From Isoetes taiwanensis (Eukaryota; Streptophyta; Lycopodiopsida; Isoetales; Isoetaceae), in NCBI GenBank assembly GCA_021234155.1, contig JAJEKV010000002.1, forward strand, positions 39,421,841-39,485,840: DNA of 64,000 nt, written 5' to 3'. Made by a program: the position numbers and the translations under genes. The first letter of the stretch is position 1; each line of letters starts with the position of its first letter. Positions 12,951 through 60,378 of this stretch are shown in pieces. The notes beneath the pieces are model-generated. The model did no database searches, had not been told where the DNA came from, and worked only from the letters and a program-made list of their open reading frames with translations.

Positions 12951-13081
12951 GAGAGAGAGAGAGAGAGAGAGAGAGAGAGAGAGAGAGAGAGAGAGAGAGA
13001 GAGAGAGAGAGAGAGAGAGAGAGAGAGAGAGAGAGAGAGAGAGAGAGAGAGAGAGAGAGAGAGAGAGAGAGAGAGAGAGAG
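12951..13081. repeat. (GA)n microsatellite at the 3' end of LINE-A
   Basis: An uninterrupted GA tract of about 131 bp, reading (TC)n on the LINE sense strand. It follows the LINE-A 3' sequence directly. Confidence 0.95.
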
Positions 13082-13096
13082 AAGTGAATTGTATTA

Positions 13097-13130
13097 CGTC
13101 TTTTGGGAGGCCTCCCAGGCCTATAAGACG
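13097..13130 (-). other. 3'-end hairpin of LINE-A
   Basis: On the sense strand an outer stem CGTCTT/AAGACG encloses an inner stem AGGCCT-GGG-AGGCCT, 16 bases before the TC tail. Copies B and C keep the same fold with different bases. It may be the RNA feature recognised by the reverse transcriptase. Confidence 0.6.
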
Positions 13131-13136
13131 AGAAAA

Positions 13137-57818: not shown

Positions 57819-59411
57819 TTATCTTTCAGACCGGGGAATTATATGCCCCCATCTACCCGTTTCCACACCCAAGTGATGAGAACTAAGGCGAATTCTACCA
57901 ATTGCATGCCTCTTCTTTATAGAGATGTTATCCGCCAAATACTGCGCCACTTCCAGCCTAGGATTCATGTTTTGTCTATAAAGAATCATCTTCGTCTTTG
58001 GTTGTGCCCACATCTTTCTTTGAAACTTATCAAAAACCCATTGCCTTAGATTCTTACCCTTTGAGATTGCCTCTTCCCAATGAATATCCCATCTTCCTAG
58101 CCAACATCCCGAAACCATCCTTTATCTTTGCTGGCCAAAAAAGCCTTATGTGGAAGCCTAGTATCATCCATATGTATCACTTTATTCAGAAAGCGGATGC
58201 ATCTTATCATGGCTTCTCCCTCCAATAGTAAGAGGCCACACTCCGCTAGCATCACCGGATATGACGTTTGGGCCTTAACTCCCAACTCGAGCCTGATAAA
58301 CTTTTTTAAAATCTGCTCAAGATCATCCCATAGACCTTGCGTGATACTGGGCCCCCAGATCTCACTACCATACAATGCAACACTTAGCACCAAGGATTCA
58401 AACAATCTCTTCTTAAGTGTCCATGACCATAGATGTGCCCTCCTGCATAGACTTTGCATGGCATAAAGAGCCTTATGGCTCCCATCAACTCTATGAGCAA
58501 TGCAAGTATTCCACCTGTGATTCCTATGAAACATCAGCCCCAGATACTTATAAGAATCACAAGTGCTTACCAAATGATTTTTGTATCTAAAAGTGCTTTC
58601 CTGCTTGAGTGCTCCCACTGTCATAATGCTAGTTTTCTCCAAGTTCACTTGCATCTCGGTAGAGTCACAAAAACGAGCCAGCCCATCTAAATGGCTTTGT
58701 ATACACTCCGAGGAGCGCGCAAAGATGACCACATCTGCATATATTAGCAACTTCACCACAAAGTCATGTAGCAAAATACCACCAGGACAATTTGCCTGTA
58801 ACCAACTTTCCAACCCATCAATAAATAATCCGAACAAGGTGGGAGACATGGGACACCCTTGTTTCACTCCAATGTTACTAGATATATAATCAGGAGTTTG
58901 TAGAGATAGCGGAAAAGACAATTGTATTAGCACCTTTTCATATAGAACCTGAACCGCCTCTTTGAGTTGAATTGGCACATTGATCTTATCCATTCTCTCC
59001 CATAATTGTGATCTTGGCACTTTGTCAAAGGCCTTTTTTAAAATCCACAAAGGCCACATATGCCGGTTTTTTCGTGCCTTTCACTATATCAAATATTGTT
59101 TTCAGTACTAACAGATGATCTAAGGTAGACCTTGCTGCCCGAAAACCAGCTTGTGATTCCGCCCTCTTGACATTAATCTCAGCCCATGTGCTGATTTTAG
59201 TTTCCAAAATAGATGCAAGGAGTTTAGGCATTAGACTACTAACCAAAATGGTCCTGTAATTGCTTACATCATTGAGAGATCCTCCTTTGTGAACTGGTAC
59301 AACTCTGTTAACTTGCCATTCTAAAGGAAATCCCTGCTCTATTAACTGGTACAACTCTGTTAACCTCCCGCACATCCCTATTCTGTGACAATCGCCTTCC
59401 CTTTCAACCAT
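57819..59411 (-). pseudogene. LINE-C ORF2 remnant (RT and C-terminus, no endonuclease)
   Basis: It starts abruptly at RT block 0-1 (L-I-E-Q-G-F-P-L-E-W-Q-V-N-R-V-V-P-V-H-K). It runs through Q-A-G-F-R-A-A-R-S-T and F-V-D-F-K-K, a break at about 59,040, then G-V-K-Q-G-C-P-M-S-P and L-L-I-Y-A-D-V, where the second Asp of Y-A-D-D is Val. The C-terminal part (58,118-57,819) keeps S-S-H-H-L-G-V-E-T-G-R-W-G. A 21-bp direct repeat starting AACTGGTACAACTCTG (59,292 and 59,344) sits near the deletion joint. RT is inactive by the lost Asp and the breaks. Confidence 0.8.
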
Positions 59412-60160
59412 TTCACGGTCTGATTTTTCTGCTTTGCCTCCTTGAATTTAATGAGCTCTTGTTTCTTTTCCTGCATCTGTTCTTTTGACAGGTCCTCGTT
59501 TACCCAAATGAATTTACCTTTAAGGGTATGCCTTTGTTTCAGGATTTGGAATTTTGCCTCTCTGTTAGGCAGCCGAAGTAAGATATTGCGAGTGCCTGCA
59601 TCTCTTTTCCCCAACCTGAAAGCATCTAAAATCTCAATCTTGGGTACGAGCATGTCTTCCTGCAGAAATTTCTCAACTGTTTCTTTCGTATTTTCATTGG
59701 CATGCTCGGGCAGTCCTACTATTCTCAGATTTAGTGCTCTTTGCTTCCGTTCCTGAGTTTCCACATAATCATCAAACAAGGTTCTCAAATTCCCAACCTC
59801 CTCCATTGCTGAATCCAATGCATTTTCAGAACTTTTCTCCTTCAAAGCCAGAATCTCTCCTTTTACCTCATTCAATTCACCCTGCAGTTGCACAAAATTT
59901 GAGCGAAGGGCTTCATTTTCCCTTCGCAAGTACTTGATCTCTTCCAGAAGTTTCGTTTCCCTAAGGGCTGATTCTTGCCTGAAAGTAATCAATTCATTCA
60001 TGATAGCAGCAAGGGAGAGTTTCACCTCAGATTCATCCTCCGCACCACATTTCGTCCCTGATTTTCCCTCCTTCTTATTCTTCTGATCAACGGATTCTGC
60101 TTCTGAAAGGTCAGCATCGGTGTCAGCACCAGACGATCCCCCTGTTTCGGAAATGTCCAT
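59378..60160 (-). CDS. LINE-C ORF1 protein
   Basis: An open frame of 260 residues from M-D-I-S-E-T-G-G (60,160). A longer in-frame extension to 60,451 runs through the TC tract and is unlikely to be used. Residues about 50-130 are coiled coil (E-E-I-K-Y-L-R-R-E-N-E-A-L), followed by A-L-N-L-R-I-V-G-L-P-E-H, D-A-F-R-L-G-K-R-D-A-G and V-N-E-D-L-S-K-E-Q. Same architecture as LINE-A ORF1. The sequence after K-G-K-A-I-V-T-E passes directly into displaced RT sequence at the deletion joint. Confidence 0.75.
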   Translation of the reverse strand: MDISETGGSSGADTDADLSEAESVDQKNKKEGKSGTKCGAEDESEVKLSLAAIMNELITFRQESALRETKLLEEIKYLRRENEALRSNFVQLQGELNEVKGEILALKEKSSENALDSAMEEVGNLRTLFDDYVETQERKQRALNLRIVGLPEHANENTKETVEKFLQEDMLVPKIEILDAFRLGKRDAGTRNILLRLPNREAKFQILKQRHTLKGKFIWVNEDLSKEQMQEKKQELIKFKEAKQKNQTVKWLKGKAIVTE

Positions 60161-60345
60161 TTTGGTCTTCGGCCCCTTTTTAACTTTCTCCACAGCGACA
60201 GATTTGGACGACCACTCTTGCCCCCCGCCATGTGCACTCTTTTTCTTGATTTCAGCCCCCCGCCATAGTCGGCCCAAAACCAAATGCGACCCACATGATC
60301 GCTTTTTTTTTTTTTTTAGAGAGGAGGAGGGAGGGAGGGAGGGAG

Positions 60346-60378
60346 GAGAGAGAGAGAGAGAGAGAGAGAGAGAGAGAG
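60346..60378. repeat. Short (GA)n tract at the 5' end of LINE-C
   Basis: 33 bp of GA, with GGGAGGGA repeats between it and the LINE-C leader. Confidence 0.9.

Follow-up and report, generated by a model that had tools for sequence, protein, structure and literature searches.

The locus considered here raises the question of why its long interspersed nuclear elements (LINEs) are bordered by dinucleotide tracts of a single kind. The window, i.e., the whole stretch of DNA that was analysed, comprises 64,000 nucleotides (64 kb) of the quillwort Isoetes taiwanensis (contig JAJEKV010000002.1, positions 39,421,841 to 39,485,840) and carries several LINEs and LINE fragments, named LINE-A to LINE-E. 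An initial annotation had proposed a plant LINE group that uses (TC)n both as its target and as its 3' tail. The target half of this proposal is supported by TC at 3' ends, by TC at full-length and truncated 5' ends, and by TC-only copies of a genomic repeat, termed repeat (a), other copies of which hold LINEs. It is highly probable that the window LINEs belong to a large group that prefers to insert into (TC)n microsatellites, or comparable pyrimidine runs, that are already present. The preference is strong, not absolute. The same microsatellite is found at both junctions and in one orientation, not in every copy, which describes a microsatellite-targeting way of working and not a clade.

LINEs and TC tracts in the window

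A scan of the window for runs of at least 12 bp of the types GA, TC, CA/TG and TA yielded seven dinucleotide tracts, all reading AG on the plus strand (GA/TC), six of which are located at LINE ends. As all LINEs here occupy the minus strand, their sense strand reads TC. The elements, with their open reading frames (ORFs), reverse transcriptase (RT) parts and tracts, are as follows.

12950-13081, TC on the minus strand: (TC)n flank at the LINE-A 3' end (tract scan)
13082-17355, minus strand: LINE-A, full-length but broken (ORFs, Pfam and tblastn map)
15323-16051, 14343-15026 and 13137-14096, minus strand: LINE-A endonuclease and RT pieces
16439-17149, minus strand: LINE-A ORF1
17356-17531: (TC)n tract common to the LINE-A 5' end and the LINE-B 3' end
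17532-20419, minus strand: LINE-B, 5'-truncated inside the endonuclease domain (tblastn)
20420-20567: (TC)n tract at the truncated LINE-B 5' end (tract scan)
about 51700-52409, minus strand: LINE-E, a 5' fragment with an ORF1 piece
52410-52443: (TC)n tract at the LINE-E 5' end (tract scan)
52644-52729: (TC)43 tract with no LINE directly beside it (tract scan)
57376-57485: (TC)n tract at the LINE-C 3' end (tract scan)
57486-60345, minus strand: LINE-C, endonuclease part missing, 5' boundary uncertain
59381-60160 (ORF1) and about 57545-59414 (RT part), minus strand: LINE-C coding parts
60346-60377: (TC)n tract near the LINE-C 5' end (tract scan)
about 60895-63137, minus strand: LINE-D, a degraded relative

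The RT pieces of LINE-B, LINE-C and LINE-D are only 56%, about 61% and 52% identical to the LINE-A piece, respectively (tblastn within the window); thus, the window holds several LINE lineages. Pfam assigns RVT_1 to LINE-A and gives an Exo_endo_phos_2 match below the cutoff. LINE-C owes its short length to the absence of the endonuclease part: by tblastn, ORF1 homology stops at 59381 and RT homology picks up at 59375-59414.

The (GA)n tracts that the initial annotation had read at both ends of LINE-A, LINE-B and LINE-C and at the 5' end of LINE-E were all recovered; however, the LINE-C 5' junction could not be confirmed as direct, since the motif AAAAAAAGCGATCATGTGGG is present on both sides of the 60346-60377 tract and leaves the start of LINE-C uncertain. 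TC at the truncation point of LINE-B was upheld, the coding homology to LINE-A beginning at 20418 and adjoining the tract at 20420 (tblastn). The three elements had also been counted as independent cases, which has to be given up for LINE-A and LINE-B, as the shared tract at 17356-17531 makes them a tandem pair in the same orientation.

3' junctions

Genome-wide searches covered the Isoetes taiwanensis assembly (1,658,258,908 bases in 1110 contigs). The RT pieces of LINE-A and LINE-B returned 33,255 and 33,749 first-look candidates, respectively, and 150 candidates were scored and matched per search. A motif from the LINE-A 3' end had 87 exact genomic matches, all of which were inspected (19 within loci L001-L030 and 68 fetched), and the reversed motif, used as a control, had 0 matches genome-wide. 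Within 90 nucleotides (nt) of the junction, (TC)5 or longer occurred in 62/87, another pyrimidine run in 7/87 and a short TCTCTC in 6/87; two of these last 13 are weak cases, with a poly-T run 75 nt off in L006 and a short TC 63 nt off in L088. Over the same distance (GA)5 occurred in 0/87, in agreement with the annotated single direction of the elements relative to the tract. The tract beside the 62 TC junctions has a median length of 66 nt. By comparison, 69 control stretches 290-390 nt downstream were of sufficient length, and 3 of these held (TC)5; the window background amounts to 13/1278 bins of 100 bp, counted on both strands and with LINE-linked tracts included.

The reading of TC as the 3' tail was rejected, since the elements carry a different repeat of their own, (ACTTC)n or similar, which sits behind a conserved stem-loop and is followed by TC; TC therefore reads as the target and not as the tail. 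These tails vary by family, as (ACTTC)n, (ATTTC)n or (TTTC)n, and TC recurs after all of them, while L008, L028, L042 and L044 end in their own tail without TC. The number of tail units ranges from 1 to 9 per copy in 81/87 LINE-A-type 3' ends; a 3' poly(A) tail, the mark of the flowering-plant L1 clade, was not found as their characteristic end, which is the (ACTTC)n- or (ATTTC)n-type tail in those 81. For LINE-B-type families, 32 of the 150 scored copies were hand-picked down the list and fetched; the stem-loop is contained in 31/32 of their 3' ends, and (TC)5 follows within 120 nt in 23/31.

A (CA)n stretch was also seen beside the junction TC tract, on the 5' side in L006, L018 and L026 and on the 3' side in L002, L003, L012, L084, L113, L124 and L128. 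These stretches are unexplained, compound microsatellites and expansion at the joint being the two candidates.

5' junctions and trains

The 5' sample consisted of 29 relatives of LINE-A (L002-L030). The boundary lay within the first fetch in 17/29, the 12 others were followed with upstream pieces, and several boundaries were judged by eye. TC was found at the 5' boundary in 23/29, a count that includes L006 and L026, in which a CA stretch separates TC from the element, and L018, in which CA and about 30 nt do so. In the copies traced with upstream pieces, 2-233 nt separate the TC tract from the downstream start of detectable ORF1 homology, and in L020 the homology overlaps the tract; for LINE-A, the 5' untranslated region (UTR) is about 206 nt long. 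Truncation points are scattered between ORF1 and LINE-A position 2283, which is near the RT piece, and because they vary, the 5' TC is not part of the element.

On inspection by eye, the sequence beyond the 5' TC shows no LINE 3' end in, e.g., L007, L010, L019 and L021, and shows one in L004, L013, L017, L018 and L029, which form trains. An inserted element has TC on either side, so that further copies can land in the same place and in the same direction, as in the LINE-B/LINE-A pair. Among the LINE-B relatives L143-L148, TC tracts stand upstream in 4/6; no ORF1 homology fixes their boundary and none was counted. Tabulated flanks, which the initial annotation had named as the check, give an excess of TC in one orientation at both ends in the copies read. 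The contrary outcomes named there did not occur among these copies: poly(A) or non-TC ends are not the majority, and TC is not confined to the 3' end.

Sites with TC alone

One arm of repeat (a) borders LINE-C.

57276-57375, minus strand: repeat (a) arm in the LINE-C 3' flank, with the TC tract beside it

A 34-bp piece of this arm has 71 exact genomic copies. Complete copies of repeat (a) have arms with inverted GGCCACATG-type motifs; by eye, the LINE-C 5' flank is similar to the other arm (CATGTGG motif) without matching it exactly. Twenty of the 71 copies, hand-chosen with those already seen left out, were fetched with 240 bp on the far side of the arm. A LINE 3' end was found there in 8/20. 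In 3/20 (L151, L163 and L164), the far side held the opposite arm, separated from the first by nothing but TC or pyrimidine, the run being (TC)56 in L164 and (TC)61 plus more pyrimidine in L163. The remaining copies comprise one with arms joined by GA (L149), two partial TC-rich ones (L153 and L157), one with another repeat (L159) and five with other sequence (L150, L152, L154, L165 and L166). A clustering of flanks also took in leftover LINE sequence and served as a lead only. For the empty sites of TC alone that the initial annotation had called for, the three copies are candidates, being paralogous sites.

Adjacent TC accompanies inverted GGCCACATG-type arms at 57276-57375, L135, L151, L163 and L164, and repeat (a) may be mobile in its own right, as an element of the terminal-inverted-repeat type that favours TC.

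Weighing the alternatives

Several observations weigh against a TC target. TC is missing from 12/87 LINE-A-type 3' ends and from 6/29 5' ends (L008, L022, L025, L027, L028 and L030), so that a strict TC specificity, as implied earlier, is not supported. The 29 copies of the 5' sample are the best relatives of LINE-A and not a random sample, copies within one train do not count as independent cases, and one flank is common to L033 and L092. LINE-D has no TC tract at either end, its 3' end not being recognisable. L155, one of the eight repeat (a) copies with a LINE 3' end, joins the two without a TC tract, and the TC-only sites are paralogous repeat copies, not the same locus without the insertion; one of them, L151, has only (TC)6.

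That last copy also fits a different account, in which the target is only a short pyrimidine motif such as TCTC and slippage lengthened the microsatellites once the element was in place. Junctions with only 6-8 nt of TC (L012, L035, L062, L073 and L095) and L011, with (TC)6 at both ends, agree with it and suggest that a short TC run can be enough. However, the tracts of L163 and L164 are long with no LINE between the arms, and the junction tracts are typically long as well, as their median shows; we regard this account as unlikely. Much less probable still is that the element itself makes the TC, as a 3' tail on one side and by template switching onto another element's tail on the other. Trains do show that some 5' TC is the 3' flank of another copy; however, the elements' own tails are different repeats and end without TC in four named copies, several copies have no LINE 3' end beyond their 5' TC, and TC-only copies of repeat (a) exist. 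An assembly artefact, with LINEs collapsed or misjoined at microsatellites, is hardly credible: microsatellites are generally hard to assemble and the TC lengths may be inexact, but the 62 TC junctions have one strand sense across many contigs and diverse flanks, and the pattern also appears at short tracts of 10-20 nt. Insertion into pre-existing TC thus remains the reading preferred here.

Proposed mechanism and the 3' stem-loop

Under insertion into a pre-existing tract, target-primed reverse transcription starting at a GA-strand nick fits, because TC lies at both ends and in the sense strand. An endonuclease of the apurinic/apyrimidinic endonuclease (APE) type would nick the GA strand of the TC/GA tract, and the element RNA would terminate in the conserved stem-loop followed by a short tail of repeats with UUC at its very end. 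Once freed, the end of the GA strand could pair with the pyrimidine end of the RNA and prime reverse transcription, slippage during priming may yield the 1-9 tail units, and second-strand joining would keep TC on the 5' side, even after an early stop of reverse transcription.

The stem-loop, which may take part in this process, is found in the window at the following positions.

13097-13130, minus strand: LINE-A 3' stem-loop, just before the tail (-13.7 kcal/mol, z -2.5)
17566-17597, minus strand: LINE-B 3' stem-loop (-12.6 kcal/mol, z -3.6)
57496-57527, minus strand: LINE-C 3' stem-loop (-12.3 kcal/mol, z -2.8)

An alignment of the stem-loop (17 of 39 distinct sequences) left the outer arm unaligned, and single folds of six sequences were used instead. 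The same two-part stem-loop forms in all six 3' ends, with z from -2.5 to -5.4 against shuffles. Some families have AGGCC/GGCCT in the inner stem and others AGACC/GGTCT, so that both sides of the stem have changed in step. This structure may be recognised by the element RT.

Element proteins and affiliation

Several copies among the 150 scored per search have an open frame of about 1100 aa. In L005 and L012, whose ORF2 is open over 1100 aa, Exo_endo_phos exceeds the cutoff in both and is followed by RVT_1, and Exo_endo_phos_2 exceeds it in L012 only. Judged from these domain matches, the elements are APE-type LINEs, not of the restriction-like endonuclease type, with the APE-like endonuclease N-terminal to the RT in ORF2. 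In the predicted ORF1 fold, a long helix region is accompanied by an RNA recognition motif (RRM)-like part and a C-terminal part. Its best Foldseek matches are human LINE-1 ORF1p, with low TM-scores of ~0.3, and a second structure aligner gave human LINE-1 ORF1p as only one among many RRM proteins. On this model, ORF1 resembles human L1 ORF1p, with the coiled coil, RRM and C-terminal domain that define the L1 group.

The closest solved RTs in phmmer are those of R2 for both queries, with human L1 among the matches listed only for LINE-B. NCBIfam matches ORF2 with generic RT models only, far below their cutoffs. Relatives in the protein database are distant, the best ORF2 match being 32% identical over 94% (P0046), and ORF1 has one relative there (P0061); one database match bears a gene name whose prefix we take to be Ginkgo-style. 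Neither viral_contigs (7 pattern matches) nor genome_contigs (50 pattern matches) yielded any relative in tblastn searches.

The LINE-E 5' UTR is 87% identical to that of LINE-A (52206-52456 against 17154-17402, and likewise 52206-52409 against 17154-17355), and the first parts of the ORF1 proteins are only ~38% identical. This contrast suggests that 5' UTRs may have been exchanged between LINE families.

Possible partners in TC tracts

Blocks of about 220 bp that look tRNA-like lie between TC tracts in L132 (about 437-656) and L136 (about 390-613, sense), and a similar block follows a LINE tail and TC in L106; they carry a (TATC)n-like tail beside the TC tracts. ARAGORN found no tRNA in the 12 loci examined, and the A and B boxes of these blocks, which resemble short interspersed nuclear elements (SINEs), are therefore a by-eye reading. 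There are hints that SINEs use the same TC target as the LINEs. In L150, a sequence that we take to be U6 small nuclear RNA-like is joined directly to (TC)24 beside repeat (a).

Whether (TC)n is a common landing zone, in which diverged LINE lineages, tRNA-like SINEs and perhaps U6 copies are inserted by the same machinery in same-direction trains, seems to us evenly balanced. If so, the choice of a microsatellite target would have outlasted RT divergence to ~50% identity as well as changes of tail.

Relation to known systems

The best-known target-specific LINEs are those of animals and protists. Kojima and Fujiwara reportedly described, in 2004, Kibi and other target-specific fish LINEs of the Tx1 clade, Kibi being said to use TC repeats. 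Kibi is likewise an APE-type LINE with a microsatellite target; however, such families are animal ones, whereas the plant group comprises several lineages with different tails. In Lepidoptera, RTE elements are said, by the title of a study (PMC2887409), to generate microsatellites, which is a similar link between LINE and microsatellite, except that there the element makes the repeat and here the repeat appears to come first.

The following sources offer further comparisons. Togen LINEs of fish target (TG)n microsatellites, and some HERO families also target microsatellites (PMC4640811). The dinucleotide target is shared with the quillwort LINEs, but Togen is NeSL-related, a lineage counted as having a restriction-like endonuclease, unlike the APE-type plant elements (PMC4640811). 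L1-CS of Cuscuta europaea, the closest plant case among the literature matches listed, prefers TTCTA and TTTCAA sites in a 389-bp satellite and produces target site duplications (PMC8091179); it too is a lineage of plant LINEs whose insertions are directed to a tandem repeat, although that repeat is a satellite and not a microsatellite. Stringent-type L1s of maize and sorghum resemble the quillwort LINEs in a conserved 3' stem-loop with compensatory changes, whereas the text available for them mentions no microsatellite target (PMC3747384). No plant LINE with a microsatellite target was among the matches listed from the open-licence literature, as judged by titles and the openings of abstracts, and the excerpts of the Isoetes genome literature (including PMC8566536) contain no mention of microsatellite-targeting LINEs. 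LINEs that target TC microsatellites thus seem undescribed in plants.

With ~33,000 first-look candidates, an open ORF2 and a simple target, the group could serve as a model for an APE endonuclease that reads a dinucleotide repeat, and it would allow study of how the choice of target persists when the RNA tail changes. TC targeting makes head-to-tail stacking of copies within repetitive DNA possible. It may also account for the frequency with which TC/GA microsatellites border LINEs in this genome, a matter of relevance to markers and assembly.

Other features of the window

Arrays of a 19-bp repeat of the GCTCAAACATGCCACCTAG type occupy 20631-22236 and 25840-26923, and a similar sequence borders the TC tract in L152. 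A transposase ORF with a DDE_Tnp_4 domain (Pfam), presumably of the PIF/Harbinger type, lies at 55693-56490 on the minus strand.
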